Of a stretch of 46,655 nt of DNA, positions 10,480 through 42,161 are shown piece after piece; positions within the stretch are counted from its first letter, which is position 1; every line of letters begins with the position of its first letter. The stretch is from Anaerolineae bacterium (GTDB lineage: Bacteria > Chloroflexota > Anaerolineae > Aggregatilineales > Aggregatilineaceae). The stretch spans positions 1 to 46,655 of the forward strand of contig JAHDWP010000027.1 in NCBI GenBank assembly GCA_023382715.1, in the 5' to 3' direction. A program made the position numbers and the translations under genes. The notes under the pieces were generated by a model. It was not told where the DNA came from. It searched no databases and was given only the letters and a program-made list of their open reading frames with translations.

Positions 10480-10650
10480 CTGCCGGTAGTTGCTCGCTGT
10501 TACCCCCCACCCCAAATCCCTCTCCCACAAGGAGGGAGGGGCTTAGCGAGCGCGCCTTTCTCCCTTCTCCCCTCGTGGGGGAAGGGCCGAGGATGGGAGG
10601 CACAGGCAGGCGCGCGCCTTTTCAGACAGCCTTTAACCGGCCACCACTAC
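10480..10650. repeat. Interspersed element, family A, copy A3
   Basis: Two G/C-rich hairpins are present: CCCTCTCCCACAAGGAGGGAGGGG region at 10517-10541 and TTCTCCCCTCGTGGGGGAAGG region at 10564-10586. They are in the opposite orientation to the copy at 15335. The left flank AAAGTCTGCCGGTAGTTGCT is shared with the copy near 2716, so these two may form a subfamily with different ends. It fills most of the gap between the convergent flippase and 72-residue ORF genes. Confidence 0.6.
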
Positions 10651-14068: not shown

Positions 14069-15304
14069 ATGCGTGATGTTCCCCGCAGTTTGCTATGGGT
14101 GACGCTCGGCATGATCGTTGCCAACCTCGCCGGCGAGATGTACTACCCCATCCTCCCGCTCTACCTGGAATCGCTCGGCGCAACTGTGCAGGAAGTCGGC
14201 GTATTCTTCACGCTGCAAGTTGTCCTGGCGATCTGCTTCCGCATTCTGGGCGGCTGGATCTCCGATCATATGGGCCGCCTGCCGACCATTGCCATGGGCA
14301 GCCTCTTTGGGATGGGAGCCATCACCGGCTACACGCTCGCGCCCACCTGGGAATGGGCGGCGACCGGCGCATTGATGGGCGCAGTGGGCAGTTCCCTGGT
14401 GGGGCCGAGCTTTCAGGCGTTCATCGCCGAACAGGCTCCCGAAGGCCGGATGAGCAGCACCTTCGGCCTGATCAATGGCCTGTTCCTGATCTGCGCGATC
14501 ATCGGGCCACCGGTCGGTGGATACATGGCCGACCACGTTGGCTTCAAGGCGATGATGTGGGTTGCCACAGCTATTTTTTACCTGGCAACCGCCATGCGCG
14601 TCTGGATGGCCCGGGGATCGCGCTTCGAAGTCAAGGACTTGCAGCCGGGCCAGTTGGCGCGCGATATGCGGATCACGCTGGGGCTGCTGTTTGGCGGGGG
14701 CGTGCTGACGTGGTTGTTCCTGATTGATGGCCTGTCCGATGCGGGGTATCAGGTGGCGTTCCCGTTCCTGCCCAAATACATTACCGAGCTGCGCGACATG
14801 CCTAAGACGACCTACGGCATTCTGATGGCGTTGTCATCGCTGGTCAGCGCGCTGGCCATGTGGCCGTGTGGCCGCCTGGCAGACCGCATTGGCGAACGGC
14901 TCAGCATCGCGCTGGGCATGTTGCTCTCCAGCGTGATCATGCTGTTGCTGGTCGCAATTCGGGTTCCCGCCGCGGTCTTCATCGGTTTCGGCGCATTTGG
15001 TCTGGCCCAGGCGTTCGTCGGCCCGGCGTTCTCCGGGCTGCTCAGCAAGGCGGTGCCTAAGGGATCGCTCGGGATAACCTGGGGCGTGTTCTGGACGGCG
15101 CTCGGCGCGCTCGCGATCCCGGCCCCAATCCTCGGCGGTTTCCTGTACGACCATGTCGCGCCGGAGTCCGTCTTTGTGGTGTCGGCGGCGTGCACGCTGC
15201 TGGCAGTGCCGCTCGTGCTGCGCAAGCTACGCCTCTCGGCGGCCAGGCCCGCTGTCGTCCCAGTGGAACAAACCGGTCACGAAGCCGCGAACCTGCTGCG
15301 CTGA
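14069..15304 (+). CDS. Major facilitator superfamily transporter
   Basis: This is a 411-residue membrane protein with twelve predicted helices in two six-helix halves. The MFS motif A appears twice: GGWISDHMGRLPT between helices 2 and 3, and GRLADRIGERLSIALG at the equivalent site of the second half. That argues for a complete transporter. The N-terminus (MRDVPRSLLWVTLGMIVANL) leads straight into helix 1. Family members are proton-coupled exporters or sugar/drug transporters; the sequence does not fix the substrate. It lies alone between repeat-rich spacers, 567 bases after the M24 gene, and is convergent with pyrF. Confidence 0.85.
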   Translation: MRDVPRSLLWVTLGMIVANLAGEMYYPILPLYLESLGATVQEVGVFFTLQVVLAICFRILGGWISDHMGRLPTIAMGSLFGMGAITGYTLAPTWEWAATGALMGAVGSSLVGPSFQAFIAEQAPEGRMSSTFGLINGLFLICAIIGPPVGGYMADHVGFKAMMWVATAIFYLATAMRVWMARGSRFEVKDLQPGQLARDMRITLGLLFGGGVLTWLFLIDGLSDAGYQVAFPFLPKYITELRDMPKTTYGILMALSSLVSALAMWPCGRLADRIGERLSIALGMLLSSVIMLLLVAIRVPAAVFIGFGAFGLAQAFVGPAFSGLLSKAVPKGSLGITWGVFWTALGALAIPAPILGGFLYDHVAPESVFVVSAACTLLAVPLVLRKLRLSAARPAVVPVEQTGHEAANLLR

Positions 15305-15334
15305 GCACGTTGGAGCAGAGGAAAAAAGCGCATC

Positions 15335-15488
15335 AGAGGCCGTTCGAGAAGCCGTGCGCCTGCCTTTGCCCCCCATCTCCGGCCCTTCCCCCCCGAGGGG
15401 GGAAGGGAGAAGAGCGCCGGCCCCGAACCCCTCCCTCCTTGTGGGGAAGGGGTTTGGGGTGGGAGAAACAGTTTCGCAAATGGTCTCT
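15335..15488 (+). repeat. MITE-like interspersed element, family A, full-length copy A4
   Basis: This 154-base element is bounded by imperfect terminal inverted repeats: left AGAGGCCGTTCGAGAAG (15335-15351), right end reading on the minus strand AGAGACCATTTGCGAAA (15488-15472), 12 of 17 identical. Inside are two C/G hairpins (CTTCCCCCCCGAGGGGGGAAG and the CCCTCCCTCCTTGTGGGGAAGGGG region). No ORF is present. The same ends and interior occur at 37489-37647 in the opposite orientation and at 25887-26043. A further G/C-rich partial unit follows at about 15495-15530, and the rest of the gap to 15653 holds no gene. Confidence 0.75.
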
Positions 15489-20556: not shown

Positions 20557-20585
20557 CCGACAAACACGCTATTTCGCGGTATGAT
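20557..20585 (+). promoter_or_regulatory. Probable promoter for the mannosyl-phosphate synthase gene
   Basis: CCGACA (20557-20562, 4 of 6 to TTGACA), 17 bases, then TATGAT (20580-20585, 5 of 6 to TATAAT). The predicted start is near 20592, about 90 bases before the ATG at 20681. Confidence 0.5.
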
Positions 20586-20680
20586 TGGGGCGGGCGGGAA
20601 CATCATCCCACCACGGTGACGCGGCGAGAGTCAGCGCGCCGGCGAGCGGCGCCGGACGCTGTGCAGGCGGAGAGCAACGC

Positions 20681-21442
20681 ATGAAGCTGATAGTCGTGCT
20701 GCCCACATATAACGAGGCAGAGAACCTGGAGACGATGGTCGAGCGGCTGCTGGCGCTGGAACTGCCGGCGGAGCTGGCCGTGCTGGTCGTGGACGACAAT
20801 TCGCCGGACGGCACCGGCCCGATCGCCGACAAACTGGCCGCGCAGCATCCGGGCCGGGTGGACGTGCTTCACCGGCGCAACAAGCGCGGCCTGGGCACGG
20901 CCTATATTGACGGTTTCCGCGTCGCTTTCGAGAAAGGCGCGGACTACATCCTGCAGATGGACTGCGACTTCTCGCACGACCCCCAATACATCCCGGCCAT
21001 GGTCGCCGAAGCGCTGGCCAGCGATTGCGATGTCGTCGTCGGCTCGCGCTACATGAAGGGCGGCAGCGTGGACGAGACGTGGAGCATCGGGCGCAAGTTG
21101 CTCAGTTGGTGGGCCAACAGCGTCTATGTGAACCTGATCCTGCGCACCGGCACCAAAGACGCGACCGGCGGTTTTCGCCTGTGGCGCGCCGATACGCTCA
21201 AAGGCATAGACCTGGAGCGCATCCGCTCCAGCGGCTATGTCTTCCAGGTAGAGACGATCTATGTGACCGAGAAGTTGGGCTATCGCACCAGCGAGGTGCC
21301 GATCTACTTCGCCGACCGCAAGCGCGGCCAGTCCAAGATGAGCTTCAAGATACAGAGCGAAGCGGCGCTGCGCGTGTGGCAGGTCTGGTGGCGGCACCGT
21401 CATCTGCGCCCGGCGGATCGGCTGCCTGTGCCGGGCCAGTAG
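20681..21442 (+). CDS. Polyprenol-phosphate mannosyltransferase (DPM1-like GT2)
   Basis: This 253-residue soluble GT2 enzyme matches dolichol/polyprenol-phosphate mannose synthases. It starts VVLPTYNEAENLE, has VDDNSPDGTG at 38-47 for GDP-sugar binding, the metal site DCDFSHD at 94-100, and GSRYMKGG plus DATGGFRLW in the acceptor half. It lacks the C-terminal membrane helices of the GtrB type, like human/actinobacterial DPM1 forms. It would transfer mannose from GDP-mannose to a polyprenyl phosphate, making the donor for GT39-type membrane transferases such as that at 5550. ATG 20681 follows GGCGGAGAG. It is 134 bases before the giant fusion gene. Confidence 0.9.
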   Translation: MKLIVVLPTYNEAENLETMVERLLALELPAELAVLVVDDNSPDGTGPIADKLAAQHPGRVDVLHRRNKRGLGTAYIDGFRVAFEKGADYILQMDCDFSHDPQYIPAMVAEALASDCDVVVGSRYMKGGSVDETWSIGRKLLSWWANSVYVNLILRTGTKDATGGFRLWRADTLKGIDLERIRSSGYVFQVETIYVTEKLGYRTSEVPIYFADRKRGQSKMSFKIQSEAALRVWQVWWRHRHLRPADRLPVPGQ

Positions 21443-21474
21443 AGTGCCCGACCAGGCAAGCGAGCGCGTGACAG

Positions 21475-21573
21475 ATGCCTGAGATTAACGCTGTGATCGA
21501 GCGCGACCTGCCCGATCTCAAGGCGAAGACCAGCGTAATTCTTCAGATGCTTCAAGAGCAGTCTGAGAGCTGA
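21475..21573 (+). CDS. Possible 32-residue leader ORF
   Basis: An ATG at 21475 opens a 32-codon frame ending in TGA at 21571-21573. This is the same frame as the GTG start of the 1440-residue gene at 21577, with one sense codon (AGT) between. The peptide (MPEINAVIERDLPDLKAKTS...) is helical and amphipathic, with no signal. It could be a coupled leader peptide, or a remnant of a longer N-terminus cut by a stop codon. No family was recognised. Confidence 0.3.
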   Translation: MPEINAVIERDLPDLKAKTSVILQMLQEQSES

Positions 21574-21576
21574 AGT

Positions 21577-24500
21577 GTGGCGATCTTGAAGAAAGTATTC
21601 CCCGACGCGCTGATCGTGGCAGGGCTGTTGCTTCTGCCACTCTTGTTTTTCGCGCCGGTCACGGTCGGCGGGCGCACGCTGCTGCCCGCCGATAACCTGT
21701 ACCAGTTCGAGCCGTGGCGCAGCGCCCGCGACGCGCTCGGCGTGCCAGAAATTCCGCACAACGCCCTGCTCTCCGACCTGGTGCTGCAGAATTATCAGTG
21801 GAAGACGTTCCTGCGGCGCAGCCTGGACGCAGGCACGATCCCCCTCTGGCAGCCCAACCAGTTCGCCGGGACGCCCTTCCTGGCGGCGGGGCAGCATGGC
21901 GCGCTCTACCCGTTCAGCGCCCTGTACTACATCCTGCCGCTGCCGCGCGCCTATGGCTGGTTCACCGTCAGCCAGCTCTGGCTGGCCGGCGCGCTGATGT
22001 ACCTCTTCGCGCGCGGGCTGGGCCAGGGCCGGGCGGCGGGGGCAGTGGCGGGCGTCGCGTACCAGTTCAGCGCCTTCTTCATCGTCAGCGCCGTCTTCCC
22101 GATGATGATCGCTGGCGCGGCCTGGCTGCCGTTGCTGCTGCTCATGATCGAGTTCATCATCGAGCGGCGGCCCCTGCGCGGCGACCGCCCGGCAACCGTC
22201 CCCTGGCTCGCGCTCGGCGCGCTGGCGCTGATGATGAACATTTTCGCCGGGCACGTGGAGATCACCTACTACACACTGATCGTCATGGCCTACTGGGCAG
22301 CGGCGCGCCTGCTGTGGGCGTGGTGGCGCGATCGCGCGGCCTGGCGACGGCTGGCTCGCCCAGCGGGATCGCTGCTGCTGATGGTCGCGCTGGGCGTGGG
22401 GCTGGGCGCGGCGCAATTCCTGCCGCTCTACGAGCTGGGGACACACAACTTCCGCGAGGCGGCGGCCAGCTTCAACGAGGTGCGCGGCTACGCCTTTCCC
22501 GCGCGGCACGTCGCTAAGTTCCTGCTGCCGGACGCCTTCGGCAATCCCGCCCAGCACAGCTATCGCGATGTGTTCAGCGGGGATGTGATCCAGCAGGATT
22601 GGCAGCGCCCGTGCGCGGAGTGTCCCGGCGGGTTCGCCCGCGTGACCGATACCGATTTCGGCGTGAAGAATTACGTCGAGGGCGGGGCCTATGTGGGCGT
22701 CCTGACGCTCGTCCTGGCGACGGTGGGGCTGCTGGCGCGGCGCGGTGCGGCGAGTCTGTCCGCCCACGCCTCACCCCCTAAATCCCCCTCTCCAGCCGAG
22801 CTAGAGAGGGGGGCTTCGCCGCCCACCGCCGAAGCCTTCCCCTCCCTGGCTGTGCCGGGGGGATCGGGGGGAGGAGTTACGCCCCAACCGAGACCGGCGG
22901 CCCCGCACCGCGCCATCCTGGGCCTGCTGGCCCTGGTCTCGCTGACCTTCGCCTTCGGGCTGCCCACCTACGCCGCGCTGTACTATGCGTTTCCCAACCT
23001 CAACCAACTGCACACGCCCTTCCGCTGGGTGTGGCCGTTCACTTTCTGCGCGGCGGCGCTGGCCGGGTTCGGCCTGGACGCGCTGCGCCGGGCGGCGGCA
23101 GAGCGCGCCCGCTGGGTGACCTGGCTCGGCGGCGGGCTGATCGCTCTGGGCGCGGCGCTTCTGGGCGGGCTGCTGCTCTCGCGCGCCGCTTACGACAGCT
23201 TCGCGCCGCTGGTAGAGCGCGTCTTCACCGGGCTGAGCGGGGCGGATCAGGTCTTCCCGGACGCGCGCGCCTTCTACAGTTACCAGTTCTGGAATGGGCT
23301 GGCGCTGGGGCTGCTCGTCCTGGCGGCGGGGATCGTTGTGACGCTCAGCCGGAGCGGGATGCGCCTGCCCCGACGACTGGGCGGCGCCCCCCTGTGGACG
23401 GCGCTGGCAACGGGCGTCGTCGCCCTCGACCTGGCGATCGCCGGCTGGGGCTTCACCCCGTCCGCCGACCCCGCCTGGCTGGACTACACGCCGGACGCGG
23501 TGCGCTGGCTGCAAGAGCGCCAGGCGGAAGGCGTGCCCTTCCGCTACACGACGATCAACTTCGGCGCGCAACCGCTGCACGCCAACAGCACGTGGCGCTA
23601 CGACCTGCACGACGTGCGTGGCTACGACAGCATGATCCCCCGCCAGTACGCGGAATACATGGGGCTGATCGCGGCGCAGGGCGGGCTGCTGCACAACCGC
23701 ATTGACCCGATCGCCGGGGACAACCAGCAGGCGCTCGCCTCGCCGCTGCTGGACCTGCTCAACGTGCGCTACATCGTCACCGATCAGATCGTGGCGGACG
23801 CCGAGGCGCTCGGCCTGCGCGAGGTATATGCCGACGAGGCAGTGCGCATCTACGAGAACGTGGACGCCCTGCCGCGCGCCTACACGCTGCCTTATTACGA
23901 TCTGACTCAGCCGCTTTGTGGGGCGCAGCCGGACGACTTCGCGACTATTGTGAGCAGCCCCGACTTCAGCGCCAACCCGCGCCGCGTGGTCATCGAGGGC
24001 TTCCCCGACGCAGCAAGCTGTGAGCTGGTCTACGAATGGCCGGGGCCGCAGCACGAGGCCGACCCGGTCTACGCGCAGATCACGCACTACGGCGCGATTG
24101 AGGTCATCGTCCAGCCGGAAGTCACCGAGGAGTCCTGGCTGGTGCTGGCTGACAGTTTCTACCCCGGCTGGAAGGCGTTCGTGCGCCCGGCGGGCAGCGG
24201 CGAAGACCCGGAGCAGGAGACGCCGCTTCACCTGGTCAACGGCAACTTTCGCGGCGTGCGCCTGGGGCCGGGCGCGTGGACGGTGCGCTTCCGCTACAGC
24301 CCGGCGACGTTCCAGGTGGGCGCGTTCCTGTCGTTCCTCAGCGGGATGCTGCTCATTTTCATGCTGATGCTGTGGCTGTGGCGGCGGCTCTATCGCCCCG
24401 ACGCCGAGGCCGACAGCGCGCGGCGCATCGCCAAGAACAGCCTGGCCCCGATCGTGCTCAACCTCTTCAACCGGGGCATTGACTTCGCCTTCGCCTTCAT

Positions 24501-25899
24501 CATGCTGCGCATCCTCGGCCCGGCGGACGCGGGCGTCTACTACTACGCCGTCGTCATCTTCGGCTGGTTCGACATCCTGGCCAACTTCGGGCTGAACACG
24601 CTGCTGACGCGCGAAGTGGCCCGCGACCGGGGCGCAGCGGGCCGCTACCTGCTCAACAGCACGGCGCTGCGCCTGGCGCTGTCGGCGCTGGGCGTGCCGC
24701 TGCTGATCGGCTTTCTGGCGCTGCGCCAGGCGACGGTCAGCCCGGCGCTGGAAGGGCAGGCGATCGTCGCCATCCTGCTGCTCTACGTCGGGCTGTTGCC
24801 GGGCAGCATCAGCACGGGGCTGACCGCGCTCTTCTACGCCTTTGAGAAGGCCGAGCACCCGGCGGCGATCACCACTGTCAGCACGCTCGTCAAGGTGACG
24901 CTCGGCCTGGGCACGCTGCTGCTCGGCTGGGGCGTGGTTGGGCTGGCCGGCGGCGCGGTGCTGACCAACGTGGTGACGCTGGCCGCGCTGGGCTGGCTGG
25001 CCCGCCCGCTGGCGCGCGGCGTCTTCGCCGAGCGGCTCGACGGGGCGCTGATGCGCGGCATGATCGGCGCGAGCTGGCCGCTGATGATCAACCACCTGCT
25101 AGCGACGGTCTTCTTCAAGATTGACATCGTGCTGATGGAGGCGATCAACGGCAACACCATCGTCGGCCAGTACTCGACCGCCTACAAATGGCTCGACGCG
25201 CTGAACATCATCCCGGCTTTCCTGACGATGGCCCTGCTGCCGGTGATGGCCCGCCAGGCCCACGAGGATCGCGCCGCGCTGCGCCGCAATTACACGCTGG
25301 CCGTCAAGCTGCTGGTGATCGTCGCCCTGCCGGTGGCGGTGATGACCACCTTCATCGCCGCGCCGCTGATCCGCGTGCTGGGCGGGGCGGAGTACCTGCC
25401 CGCCGGCGGCATTGCTTTGCAGATCATGATCTGGAGCATCCCCATCGGCTGGATCAACAGCGTGACCAACTACGTCATCGTCGCCCTGGACCGCCAGCGC
25501 ACGCTGACCCTCGCCTTCGCCGCTGGGGTGATCTTCAATGTGGCGGCCAACCTGGTCTTCCTGCCCGCCTACAGCTACCGCGCGGCGGCGGTGATCCACA
25601 TCCTGTCCGAGGCGACGCTGTTCGCCGCCTTCTACTGGATCATCCGCCAGGAGATCGGGGGGATGGGCTGGCGGCGCGCGCTGATCCGTCCGGCGCTGGC
25701 TGCGCTGGGCCTGCTGGGGATAACGCTCGCCCTGTGGCAGGTCGTGCCGCTGGCCGGGCTGCTGCTCTCGCCGCTGGTTTATGGGGCGATGCTGCTGGCG
25801 CTGCGCCCCTTTGGGCCGGAGGAGCTGGCGCGCGTCGCACCGCTGCTGCCGGGGCGGCTGCGCCGTTGGGCGCTGCGCTTTGACGCAAAGGGCGTTTGA
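21577..25899 (+). CDS. Fusion of YfhO-type membrane protein and polysaccharide flippase (1440 aa)
   Basis: Residues 1-~940 look like a bacterial YfhO-type membrane protein. A first helix is at 8-25, followed by PADNLYQFEPWRSARDALG, many helices to ~630, then a soluble domain with YDSMIPRQYAEYMG, LLNVRYIVTD and ESWLVLADSFYPGWKA; a helix lies near 910-930. Residues ~945-1440 form a complete flippase-like module starting RIAKNSLAPIVLNLFNRGID, then RILGPADAGVYYYAVVIFG, with about fourteen helices. Both halves are usually separate genes. Residues ~398-438 are encoded by interspersed repeat family B, and the last codons and stop lie in a family A element (25887). GTG 21577 is the likely start. It probably transfers sugars from lipid donors and flips lipid-linked glycans. 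Confidence 0.8.
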   Translation: MAILKKVFPDALIVAGLLLLPLLFFAPVTVGGRTLLPADNLYQFEPWRSARDALGVPEIPHNALLSDLVLQNYQWKTFLRRSLDAGTIPLWQPNQFAGTPFLAAGQHGALYPFSALYYILPLPRAYGWFTVSQLWLAGALMYLFARGLGQGRAAGAVAGVAYQFSAFFIVSAVFPMMIAGAAWLPLLLLMIEFIIERRPLRGDRPATVPWLALGALALMMNIFAGHVEITYYTLIVMAYWAAARLLWAWWRDRAAWRRLARPAGSLLLMVALGVGLGAAQFLPLYELGTHNFREAAASFNEVRGYAFPARHVAKFLLPDAFGNPAQHSYRDVFSGDVIQQDWQRPCAECPGGFARVTDTDFGVKNYVEGGAYVGVLTLVLATVGLLARRGAASLSAHASPPKSPSPAELERGASPPTAEAFPSLAVPGGSGGGVTPQPRPAAPHRAILGLLALVSLTFAFGLPTYAALYYAFPNLNQLHTPFRWVWPFTFCAAALAGFGLDALRRAAAERARWVTWLGGGLIALGAALLGGLLLSRAAYDSFAPLVERVFTGLSGADQVFPDARAFYSYQFWNGLALGLLVLAAGIVVTLSRSGMRLPRRLGGAPLWTALATGVVALDLAIAGWGFTPSADPAWLDYTPDAVRWLQERQAEGVPFRYTTINFGAQPLHANSTWRYDLHDVRGYDSMIPRQYAEYMGLIAAQGGLLHNRIDPIAGDNQQALASPLLDLLNVRYIVTDQIVADAEALGLREVYADEAVRIYENVDALPRAYTLPYYDLTQPLCGAQPDDFATIVSSPDFSANPRRVVIEGFPDAASCELVYEWPGPQHEADPVYAQITHYGAIEVIVQPEVTEESWLVLADSFYPGWKAFVRPAGSGEDPEQETPLHLVNGNFRGVRLGPGAWTVRFRYSPATFQVGAFLSFLSGMLLIFMLMLWLWRRLYRPDAEADSARRIAKNSLAPIVLNLFNRGIDFAFAFIMLRILGPADAGVYYYAVVIFGWFDILANFGLNTLLTREVARDRGAAGRYLLNSTALRLALSALGVPLLIGFLALRQATVSPALEGQAIVAILLLYVGLLPGSISTGLTALFYAFEKAEHPAAITTVSTLVKVTLGLGTLLLGWGVVGLAGGAVLTNVVTLAALGWLARPLARGVFAERLDGALMRGMIGASWPLMINHLLATVFFKIDIVLMEAINGNTIVGQYSTAYKWLDALNIIPAFLTMALLPVMARQAHEDRAALRRNYTLAVKLLVIVALPVAVMTTFIAAPLIRVLGGAEYLPAGGIALQIMIWSIPIGWINSVTNYVIVALDRQRTLTLAFAAGVIFNVAANLVFLPAYSYRAAAVIHILSEATLFAAFYWIIRQEIGGMGWRRALIRPALAALGLLGITLALWQVVPLAGLLLSPLVYGAMLLALRPFGPEELARVAPLLPGRLRRWALRFDAKGV
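22769..22890 (+). repeat. Interspersed element, family B, inside a coding sequence
   Basis: 122 bases starting CCTCACCCCCTAAATCCCCC and ending GCCCCAACCG. They align end to end, with the same length, with the intergenic copy at 35515-35636. The shared core TCTCCAGCCGAGCTAGAGAG is identical. Here the element is read in frame as a proline/serine/glycine-rich stretch (SPPKSPSPAELERG...) between two membrane helices of the 1440-residue fusion protein. Confidence 0.85.
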
Positions 25900-26043
25900 G
25901 GAGTCGTGCGCCTGCTCTTGCCCCCATCCCCGGCCCTTCCCCCACGAGGGGGGAAGGGAGAACAGCAGCGGGCCTGCTCCTTTTCTCCCCCTGGAGGGAG
26001 AAGGGGCCGGGGGATGAGGGGGGACTGCTACAAACGGCCTGTG
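25887..26043 (+). repeat. MITE-like interspersed element, family A, full-length copy A5
   Basis: This 157-base element has left end AAAGGGCGTTTGAGGAG (25887-25903). Its right end reads ACAGGCCGTTTGTAG on the minus strand from 26043. The interior is the C-rich/G-rich hairpin CTTCCCCCACGAGGGGGGAAG plus a second arm CTCCCCCTGGAGGGAG. The element overlaps the last codons and stop codon (25897-25899) of the 1440-residue gene. Confidence 0.72.
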
Positions 26044-35358: not shown

Positions 35359-35514
35359 CTGCCGACACTCCTCGTCCCCCCAGCAGTCGTTCCACAGCTA
35401 CCAGTACACCCATGACGGGCGGGATCGTACCGTATCGGGCAGTGTTTGGCAATCCGGGCGGCCCTTCGGGTGCGTGCAAAGGTTGACAGCGACTCGCCGG
35501 GGAGGGGGCAGTGA

Positions 35515-35636
35515 CCTCACCCCCTAAATCCCCCTCTCCAGCCGAGCTAGAGAGGGGGACTTTGACCGGCGGACGCGGCACTTCCCCCTCCCTGGCTCCG
35601 CCGGGTGGGGGTCAGGAGGAGCCTACCGCCCAACCG
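35515..35636 (+). repeat. Interspersed element, family B, intergenic copy
   Basis: A 122-base element with the same start (CCTCACCCCCTAAATCCCCC), core (TCTCCAGCCGAGCTAGAGAG) and end (CCGCCCAACCG) as the copy inside the fusion gene at 22769-22890. It lies between the LysM/M23 gene start and the antiporter gene end. Confidence 0.85.
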
Positions 35637-35689
35637 TGCGCCCAGAAGCCCTAAGTTGGGACGCATGGGGCATCTGTGCACCCCCATGA

Positions 35690-35770
35690 AGAGGGAGGGG
35701 TTTAGGGTCTGCACTCTTCTCACCTCCCCCGGTGGGGGAAGGGCCGGGGATGGGGGGCGTCGGGACAGGT
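35690..35770. repeat. Partial family A-type unit
   Basis: GAGGGAGGGGTTTAGGGT, then CCTCCCCCGGTGGGGGAAGG and GGGGATGGGGGG repeat the interior of family A without recognisable ends. Together with the family B copy it fills the 483-base spacer 35359-35841, in which no gene is seen. Confidence 0.55.
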
Positions 35771-35841
35771 CTTGCAGTCTGAGCAGCAAAGTGAACAGAT
35801 ACTCTGCGAGGCCGACCCTGCTCCAGGGATCAGATACGCTA

Positions 35842-37314
35842 TTACCCGGAAGGGCCGCTCACCAGCGCCCGGAGCCTGTCCAGGTCAGCAGGCTCGGCCA
35901 GCACAAGCAGGTTGTCTCTTTCTTCGAGCATGGTGGCCCCGCGCGGCACAACGAACTCGGCGTTGCGCCGGATCAGCACGATCAGAGCGGTCTCCGGCAG
36001 GTCTTCCAGGTCAACAATGCGCTTGTGCGCGGCCTTCGCCCCTGGCTGGATCGTCAATTCCAGCAGGTCGCTTTGAATCGGCTCGGTGGGCACGAAGGCG
36101 ATCGGGTACTTCGGCCTGGTGTCAATCGGCGCGTCCACACGCAGGAGCCGGGCCACGTAGGGCAGCGTCGTCCCCTGGACCAGGGCCGAGGTGAGCACGA
36201 TAAAGAACACCAGGTTGAAGATGGTGTTCGACCGTTCGACGCCCGCCAGCAGCGGGAAGGTCGCCAGCATAATCGGGGCCGCGCCGCGCAGCCCCACCCA
36301 CGAGACGAATAGCTTCTCGCGCAGGTTCAGGTGCCTTTCCCAGACCAGCGTCGCGAAGACAGCCAGCGGTCGCGCGATCAGGATCAGCGCGGCGGAGATC
36401 AGCAGCGCCTGGGGAGCGATAGGCATCACCTGCGAAGGGAAGACGAGCAGGCCGAGGGTGAGAAACATGACGATCTGCATCAGCCAGGCCAGCCCGCTGT
36501 GGAACTCAGTGAGGCTGCGCCTGTGAATGAAGCTGCGGTTGCCCGCCACCAACCCGGCCAGATACGCGGCCAGAAAGCCGTTGCCCCCCAGGGTGGTGGT
36601 CGCGCCATAGGTCAGCAGCACCAGACCCATGCTGGCCACCGAATACAACCCGTCGTATTCCAGCCGAATCCGGTTGAGCACAAAGGTGATGGCGCGCCCC
36701 ATGCCGATCCCGAAAACCAGGCCCAGCGCCATCTGTTGAAAGAACATCAGCACCAGGTCCGGCACCGAAGAAGCAGGGTCCTGCACCAGGCGGATCATGC
36801 CCAGGGTGAGGAAGACGGCCATCGGATCATTGCTGCCCGACTCAAATTCCAGCAGCGGGCGCAGAGAGCCGCGCAGGCCGAGGCTCTTGCTGCGCAGCAC
36901 GGCGAATACCGCTGCTGCATCGGTGGAGGACACAATAGCCCCCAGCAGCAGGGCTTCTTTCAGCGAAAAATCGAGCACCAACAGGGTGAACCCGGCCACC
37001 AGCAGGGCGCTGACGAGCACGCCCGCCGTCGCCAGCACCATCCCCATGATCATGACCGGGCGAATCTCGTCCAGGTCGGTCTCCAGGCCGCCGGAAAAGA
37101 GGATGAACGCCAGCGATGTCACGCCCAGGAACTGGGCCAGCCAGGGATCGTCGAAGTAGATACCGCCGGGGCCTTCAGAGCCAATGAGCATTCCAATGGC
37201 CAGGAACAGCAGCAGTGCCGGGACACCCAGTCGAGCAGAAATCTTACTGGCAAGGATACTCACCAACAACACAAACGCTATAGATACCAGGATATACTCG
37301 GCTGCAAGCTCCAT
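35842..37314 (-). CDS. Potassium/proton antiporter (NhaP2/CvrA-like)
   Basis: This 490-residue membrane protein has about twelve to thirteen helices of the CPA1/NhaP2 antiporter fold. AFILFSGGLETDLDEI is near helix 3. The ion-binding block is AIVSSTDAAAVFAVLRSKSLG, and FESGSNDPMAVFLTLG (helix 6) carries the Asn-Asp pair of electroneutral exchangers. Residues ~400-490 form a TrkA-C (RCK_C) regulatory domain (LLELTIQPGAKAAHKRIVDL, VVPRGATMLEERDNLLVLAE), as in potassium/proton antiporters of the CvrA type. It should export K+ or Na+ in exchange for protons. The ATG at 37314 follows a moderately purine-rich leader. The gene is monocistronic between repeats. Confidence 0.88.
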   Translation of the reverse strand: MELAAEYILVSIAFVLLVSILASKISARLGVPALLLFLAIGMLIGSEGPGGIYFDDPWLAQFLGVTSLAFILFSGGLETDLDEIRPVMIMGMVLATAGVLVSALLVAGFTLLVLDFSLKEALLLGAIVSSTDAAAVFAVLRSKSLGLRGSLRPLLEFESGSNDPMAVFLTLGMIRLVQDPASSVPDLVLMFFQQMALGLVFGIGMGRAITFVLNRIRLEYDGLYSVASMGLVLLTYGATTTLGGNGFLAAYLAGLVAGNRSFIHRRSLTEFHSGLAWLMQIVMFLTLGLLVFPSQVMPIAPQALLISAALILIARPLAVFATLVWERHLNLREKLFVSWVGLRGAAPIMLATFPLLAGVERSNTIFNLVFFIVLTSALVQGTTLPYVARLLRVDAPIDTRPKYPIAFVPTEPIQSDLLELTIQPGAKAAHKRIVDLEDLPETALIVLIRRNAEFVVPRGATMLEERDNLLVLAEPADLDRLRALVSGPSG

Positions 37315-37488: not shown

Positions 37489-37647
37489 AGAGACCATTTG
37501 AGAAGCTGTTCCCCCCCACCACCCCAAACCCCTCCCCCACAAGGAGGGAGGGGCTTAGCGAGCGCGCTTTTCTCCCTTCCCCTCTCGTGGGGGAAGGGCC
37601 GGGGATGGGGGGACAAAGGCAGATGCGCGACTTCTCGAACGGCCCCT
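37489..37647 (-). repeat. MITE-like interspersed element, family A, full-length copy A6
   Basis: This 159-base element begins with AGAGACCATTTGAGAAG (37489-37505). Its other end reads AGGGGCCGTTCGAGAAG on the minus strand from 37647; the two ends match at 13 of 17 positions. It is the inverted counterpart of copy A4 (15335-15488), sharing both ends and both internal hairpins. It lies between the antiporter start and the FGGY kinase; the right end stops 46 bases before the chosen kinase start. The remaining gap (37315-37488) has no gene. Confidence 0.78.
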
Positions 37648-37693
37648 GATGGCTGTCCCCACCCACCGGCGGTCACCTGGAGATGCGCACGCC

Positions 37694-42060: not shown

Positions 42061-42161
42061 CCTCCCCCTGGCCCCGCTCGGCGAGCCAAGTCCCCCTCTC
42101 TAGCTCGGCTGGAGAGTCCCCCTCTCTAGCTCGGCTGAAGAGGGGGATTTAGGGGGTGAGG
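42061..42161 (-). repeat. Interspersed element, family B, rearranged copy
   Basis: On the minus strand it starts CCTCACCCCCTAAATCCCCC and continues TCTTCAGCCGAGCTAGAGAG, matching copies at 22769 and 35515. A 26-base unit containing AGTCCCCCTCTCTAGCTCGG is tandemly duplicated here, and the distal half of the element is lost or diverged. Together with the two palindromes it fills the 41941-42196 spacer. Confidence 0.75.

Follow-up and report, generated by a model that had tools for sequence, protein, structure and literature searches.

How does a dispersed repeat come to lie inside the reading frame of a membrane enzyme, and is it useful there or only tolerated? The question is posed by a 46,655-nucleotide window (the whole stretch of DNA analyzed; contig C27 of the 3.88-Mb draft genome G000 of an Anaerolineae bacterium), in which a sequence-only reading had described a 122-base repeat, family B, as exapted into a membrane protein. 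The 1440-codon frame that carries it (Table 1) proved intact as claimed, with zero internal stops. Its product matches Pfam YfhO (PF09586) at residues 61–315, scoring 55.3 bits against a cut-off of 28.5, and the flippase domain Polysacc_synt at residues 952–1226. The repeat is presumably translated, contributing about 41 Pro/Ser/Gly-rich residues. The best explanation overall, to which we assign a probability of roughly 85%, is that family B inserted in frame and was tolerated in a loop, the same filter acting across the order.

Table 1. Coordinates in the window of the host gene, its four variable loops and the family B copies.
Feature	Position	Strand	Details
Host gene	21577..25899	+	GTG start, 1440 aa; YfhO-like GT-C half fused to flippase half
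Loop 1	22306..22374	+	Residues 244-266; no repeat noted in this gene; repeats in some orthologues
Loop 2	22735..22917	+	Residues 387-447; positively charged, length-variable; repeat words or hairpins in 25/74 orthologues
Loop 3	23074..23142	+	Residues 500-522; no repeat noted in this gene; repeats in some orthologues
Loop 4	23314..23394	+	Residues 580-606; no repeat noted in this gene; repeats in some orthologues
Family B copy, in frame	22769..22890	+	Codons 398-438 (398.3-438.7); Pro/Ser/Gly-rich peptide starting SPPKSPSPAELERG
Perfect inverted repeat in conserved 48-base core of in-frame copy	22784..22812	+	29 bases
Intergenic family B copy	35515..35636	+	Same length as in-frame copy
Two adjoining partial family B copies	42080..42161	-	42115-42161 and 42080-42116

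The in-frame copy had been said to match the intergenic copy at the same length and end to end. The length agrees; the end-to-end match holds only loosely for the last 74 bases, of which 42 are identical, compared to 47 of the first 48. Gapped identity is 80%, and the ungapped match of 89/122 bases compares with at most 60/122 in 30 shuffles searched over the window; with the genome-wide matches, this is more than chance. The second copy is intergenic as described, as far as seen: the preceding frame stops at 35415, a Na/H-exchanger gene (35842–37314, minus strand) begins past the copy, and a frame overlapping it (35605–36309) had no Pfam hit. Searching the own genome returned 48 match rows (E ≤ 1e-3), or at least 42 places after overlapping and adjoining rows were merged; the count is a minimum, because scoring covered 40 of 107 candidates. 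Family B is thus a dispersed repeat, short and multi-copy, and most match rows span only its first ~50 bases. Inspection of its ends for terminal inverted repeats revealed an internal perfect hairpin and a divergent 3′ part. The best reading is a short, non-autonomous, MITE-like palindromic repeat that would have been mobile and inserted by transposition. Among relatives, matches numbered 59 in G015, 31 in G016, 2 in G014 and 0 in G017 (lower bounds where more than 40 candidates arose). In G015, the richest genome, two or more copies often lie within a few hundred bases, on many contigs.

No target-site duplication was seen at the insert, the DNA of the orthologous loops being too divergent to reveal one, and no mobilizing enzyme for family B was found. 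The genome has two matches to Y1_Tnp; neither family B nor a GTAG palindrome was seen by eye in the 800 bases around the stronger. Other identities considered for family B were rejected. It is not a GTAG REP, as the in-frame copy is without the GTAG tag, nor a known structured RNA, with zero Rfam matches in the window at gathering scores. Selection of the repeats for readability was likewise rejected, as 63 of 168 frames were open over 28 family B copies, below the 77.8 (s.d. 5.2) obtained after shuffling. Of the 28 copies, 19 are open in the frame that the host gene uses.

The repeat is missing from close orthologues. Thirteen from the same family, aligned over the loop to look for a gap, all lack the insert at residues ~392–438, including three of the same genus (G014, G016 and G017; 83–90% identical pieces); the alignments of G004, G011, G013 and G015 did not extend over the loop, and these four fall outside the 13. 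With an open frame running through the repeat and a gap in orthologues, the copy is an in-frame intragenic repeat, and we call the insertion in G000 independent on the basis of its own genus mates lacking it, not of a tree. Four of the 13 (G001, G006, G008 and G016) carry other palindromes in the loop, those of G001 and G006 being of a related CCTCACCCC type. The refuting condition named in the sequence-only reading, the same Pro/Ser-rich loop in homologues from organisms without family B, must be applied with care: several homologues do have Pro-rich loops, but other palindromic repeats are seen in the DNA there. Misjoined or collapsed contigs at a dispersed repeat could in principle mimic an insertion, as the window genome and most relatives are many-contig drafts and assemblies fail at repeats. 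Such an artefact is extremely unlikely here, however, given that the sequences flanking the insert align to a single contiguous orthologous gene in relatives, the frame is unbroken, and the pattern described below recurs in two dozen assemblies, one of them of only five contigs.

An AlphaFold model of residues 1–640, built from 59 sequences (mean pLDDT 86.7), places the insert between two confident helices, one ending at 386 and the next starting at 444, with pLDDT below 50 at 391–399 and 417–434. The insert is accordingly modeled as lengthening a disordered loop between two membrane helices. Foldseek returned only two matches at E ≤ 0.001, both to ArnT (E about 5e-4, TM 0.39–0.50, rmsd 9.6–13.3). 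The 5f15 structure (E 5.6e-4, probability 1.00, TM 0.43/0.50, rmsd 9.6) shows a moderate likeness that places the model in the GT-C fold, and chains of AftA, Pmt and oligosaccharyltransferase came next. These matches agree with the available text of PMC5836110, which describes YfhO as a predicted GT-C-type glycosyltransferase. The host thus matches the YfhO-type family and is moderately ArnT-like in its model, and differs from that family in its fusion to a flippase-like half and its repeat-filled loops. Taken with the 13 insert-free orthologues, the disorder in the model upholds the view that a dispersed repeat became coding sequence in an insertion-tolerant loop.

The same loop has been filled repeatedly. 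Loop 2 was read in 74 orthologues across the order. Fourteen came from the family of the window genome, and the other 60 were drawn from the higher-ranking entries of the match list; a loop was scored positive on fixed repeat words or a perfect stem of at least 8. By this measure 25 orthologues in 15 of 44 genera were positive, or 23 orthologues in 13 genera when G022 and G026, possible chance matches, were removed. None of 148 flanking segments of matching length, taken up- and downstream within these genes, was positive (Fisher P 5e-14 versus loop 2). The words did not pick up the loop of G035, whose peptide is nevertheless similar to those of its genus mates. CCTAACCCC/CCTCACCCC-type hairpins occupy loop 2 in G001 and members of several other genera, GTAGGGGC or GTAGGGACG words occur in G008, G038, G077, G108, G133 and G135, other repeat words in G144 and G150, two repeat kinds in G006, and GTAG-type palindromes in some orthologues. 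The insertions in different genera would be independent, with genera serving as a rough proxy for events.

Multi-copy status in the own genome was established for several, not all, of these loop repeats. The repeat in the loop of G115 (counts include the loop itself and are lower bounds, with at most 40 candidates scored per genome) matched 29 times in G115, 22 in G116, 33 in G126, 34 in G074, 50 in G140 and 25 in G087; it was sparse in G018 (5), G093 (3), G049 (3) and G038 (1) and gave 0 matches in G001, G024, G030, G035 and G040. Comparing loops with samples of their own genomes (3.7–20 kb; for G000, the 46.7-kb window) gave matches in 4 of 21 rows (G077, G133, G150 and G000), that of G150 being 16 bases. 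The flank control also matched in seven rows, probably because the samples contained the gene itself, and was left unused.

Recurrence at one place could mean that a sequence-specific mobilizer targets these loops. The return to one loop in many genera would fit, as would the REPs that two Xanthomonas carry in recB at nearly the same position, according to the accessible part of PMC3733652. We consider targeting highly improbable, since unrelated repeat families enter the same loop, four different loops are affected, and by eye the loops have no evident common sequence. The spread over genera could equally speak for true exaptation, in which a longer Pro-rich cytoplasmic loop would be useful, for instance by binding a partner glycosyltransferase or coupling the fused halves. 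Against this, no conserved motif or length was seen: loop 2 ranges from 8 to 71 aa in the cut-outs, and many orthologues have short loops.

Three further loops behave in the same way. In 78 orthologous genes (81 loci minus L238, L259 and L264, which had no anchor), perfect inverted repeats with a stem of at least 9 were compared with synonymous-codon shuffles. Observed versus shuffled counts were 6 versus 2.6 in loop 1, 12 versus 1.2 in loop 2, 10 versus 2.8 in loop 3 and 5 versus 2.2 in loop 4, the excess in loops 1 and 4 taken alone being only twofold, and in the 56,331 aa outside the four loops hairpins were at background (17 versus 17.2). CCTCACCCC-type words occur 68 times in the four loops (3.2 expected) and once elsewhere (2.8 expected), GTAG-type words 20 times (2.7 expected) and 6 times elsewhere (6.1 expected), and 24 of 78 genomes have at least one word in any of the loops against 5.4 expected. 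Words and loop limits were chosen after inspection, which somewhat flatters the effect; the hairpin test is independent of the words. The 78-gene and 74-loop sets share many genomes, so the two tests are not independent of each other. In G115 and G140 repeat-derived peptides apparently occupy all four loops, and G074 combines CCCCCTCCCC-type hairpins in loops 1 and 2 with GTAG-type palindromes in loops 3 and 4. In two relatives, L253 and L257, the inverted repeat in loop 3 is of another sort, with many AGATTGGAGATT units, which suggests that the effect extends to other repeat kinds.

Loops 1–4 are net positive (mean 3.9–4.6 K/R versus 0.5–2.6 D/E) and have the widest upward length ranges, with maximal lengths of 56–87 aa. 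Segments such as 472–480 and 553–562 have 0–0.5 K/R and 11–17 aa, and the long conserved segment 290–374 has 6.0 K/R and 7.8 D/E. A fifth net positive segment (197–206; 3.3 K/R, 5–29 aa) had zero hairpins. Under the positive-inside rule, positively charged loops lie on the cytoplasmic side. Judged from charge and fold, the four repeat-bearing loops are probably cytoplasmic.

The enrichment of perfect inverted repeats exactly at inter-helix loops might also indicate that the RNA or DNA hairpin is the functional element, slowing ribosomes between membrane helices or acting as a regulatory structure, with the peptide as a by-product. Evidence on this reading and on exaptation came from genus g19, in which five species have similar inserts that look shared and were assumed homologous, that of G049 less clearly. 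Across these five species, pN/pS was 0.64 in the loop cut-out, which includes a few non-insert residues, compared to 0.15 and 0.06 in the 80 codons before and after, and no perfect stem of 8 or more was found in any of the five loops. Relaxed constraint together with the missing stems agrees better with a tolerated spacer that drifts than with a conserved RNA hairpin or peptide. A functional hairpin is therefore very unlikely: in g19 the frame was kept without a perfect stem, fresh palindromes would explain the enrichment, and soluble proteins also carry insertions. The value below 1 leaves room for some constraint, which would suit exaptation; constraint is nonetheless several-fold weaker than in the flanks, the same repeats are present in unrelated proteins, and we judge exaptation unlikely overall. 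The word "exapted" in the sequence-only reading, which implies benefit, is accordingly not sustained, and tolerated insertion, with the insert close to neutral, accounts better for the data.

The search for further family B copies inside coding sequences placed 3 of the 42 own-genome places in domain-bearing genes: the host gene, a DUF2298 membrane protein (L273) and a YfhO paralogue (L279), the last with its copy in an apparently corresponding loop. By eye, the other 39 lie between genes, ahead of start codons or in frames judged spurious. The DUF2298 membrane protein of G016 has a family B copy in the same frame, and the loop in G014 looks by eye like a decayed copy. Of 30 DUF2298 loci, 6 had no anchor and 24 were read; clear repeats were seen by eye in the loops of four (G016, G000, G006 and G008). 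That of G008 is a string of several repeats, and this loop matched 88 times in G008, 12 to 74 times in eight other genomes and 0 times in G135 (lower bounds that include the loop itself, with at most 40 candidates scored per genome). In the own genome, the B-type element of the DUF2298 loop spans CCTCACCCC to GGGGTGAGG by eye. The same loop (L309/L273, G000:C45 about 14100–14380) appears by eye to hold a truncated family B copy followed by two more palindromic repeats in one open frame.

The effect is not confined to membrane proteins. For the G115 loop repeat, 15 further places were examined in addition to three inside the YfhO gene, out of the 29 matches, and at five of the 15 the repeat is part of a protein whose Pfam domains surround or adjoin it: PMT_2, a TIR-NB-ARC-TPR protein, PriA, an E2 acyltransferase and Wzy_C (O-antigen ligase). 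The repeat-derived stretch of PriA belongs to a long part that does not align as a whole, bounded by two segments that do align to solved PriA (87–185 and 494–660), which locates it only approximately in the structure. Soluble proteins are thus affected too.

Under tolerated insertion, the course of events would be as follows. Repeats would insert widely in the genome, and one family B copy would have entered, in frame, the loop between two membrane helices of the GT-C glycosyltransferase. It would persist because the loop does little structural work, whereas insertions elsewhere in the protein would be purged by selection. In-frame copies in flexible loops or linkers would persist and then drift, and several unrelated repeat families would accumulate, at times stacked on one another, both in these four loops and in the loops or linkers of other proteins.

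In-frame palindromic inserts in genes are established from other systems. Rickettsia palindromic elements (RPEs; ~100–150 bp) are described, in the available parts of PMC2229807 and PMC10969869, as lying between genes and in frame within many unrelated protein genes, one repeat-bearing product having been shown to keep activity. Family B resembles RPEs in being a short palindromic repeat found both between and, in frame, within genes; it belongs to another phylum, and the likeness is one of description. The same parts of these papers hold no report of unrelated families filling the same orthologue loops across genera. GTAG and CGTC REPs also occur inside genes; the authors point to flexible regions, and they record GTAG repeats from Chloroflexi (PMC3733652, accessible text). 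Some loops here likewise contain GTAG-type palindromes. Family B differs from them in not being GTAG-tagged, and in the present case one loop is filled across the genera counted above and repeats are confined to four loops of the protein, compared to two Xanthomonas in the recB case of that text. ERIC, Correia/NEMIS and YPAL are small non-autonomous repeats that have formed in-frame fusions to host ORFs (PMC2229807, available part). Our inserts are likewise small and in frame, and differ in that neither a target-site duplication nor a parent transposase was found and the products are Pro/Ser/Gly-rich loop spacers. A 2025 REP survey tabulates Chloroflexota genomes, and the word "intragenic" is absent from its accessible text (PMC12306157). 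Among the papers listed by searches of the open literature, none described orthologues from several genera whose corresponding loops are filled with repeats.

What is new is scale and parallelism: across many genera of a single order, the same loops contain repeats that are unrelated to one another. In-frame repeats in genes have so far been known mostly as scattered cases; here one protein amounts to a natural insertion experiment, with about two dozen species, several unrelated repeat kinds and the same loops, and with an internal control in the rest of the protein at background. The loop repeats map the insertion tolerance of a membrane enzyme and offer a way to follow the ageing of repeat-derived peptides and to ask whether function is ever gained. 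More tentatively, and at somewhat less than even odds, the cytoplasmic loops that polytopic membrane enzymes have in Anaerolineae-type Chloroflexota may be general landing pads, with length and sequence evolving mainly by repeated capture of unrelated palindromic repeats, in which case dispersed selfish DNA would be one of the main sources from which this class gains intrinsically disordered protein sequence.

Several observations concern the surroundings of the host gene. A second dispersed palindromic repeat family occurs in the window in both orientations (121–231, 2738–2835, 10503–10632, 15331–15478, 25921–25974 and 37515–37651); several copies lie just 3′ of ORF ends, and that at 37515 lies between two Pfam-supported genes. 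A GT2 glycosyltransferase gene (Pfam Glycos_transf_2) stands directly 5′ of the YfhO–flippase fusion, both within 20585–25899, and the pair looks like a three-component sugar-transfer system (GT2, flippase and GT-C) with two parts fused. Across the order, long frames (1300–1500 aa) recur. The protein also appears in L212 and L247, records titled Pleurocapsa minor and Bacteroidetes bacterium that fall among Chloroflexota relatives; probably the titles are wrong or the bins mixed.
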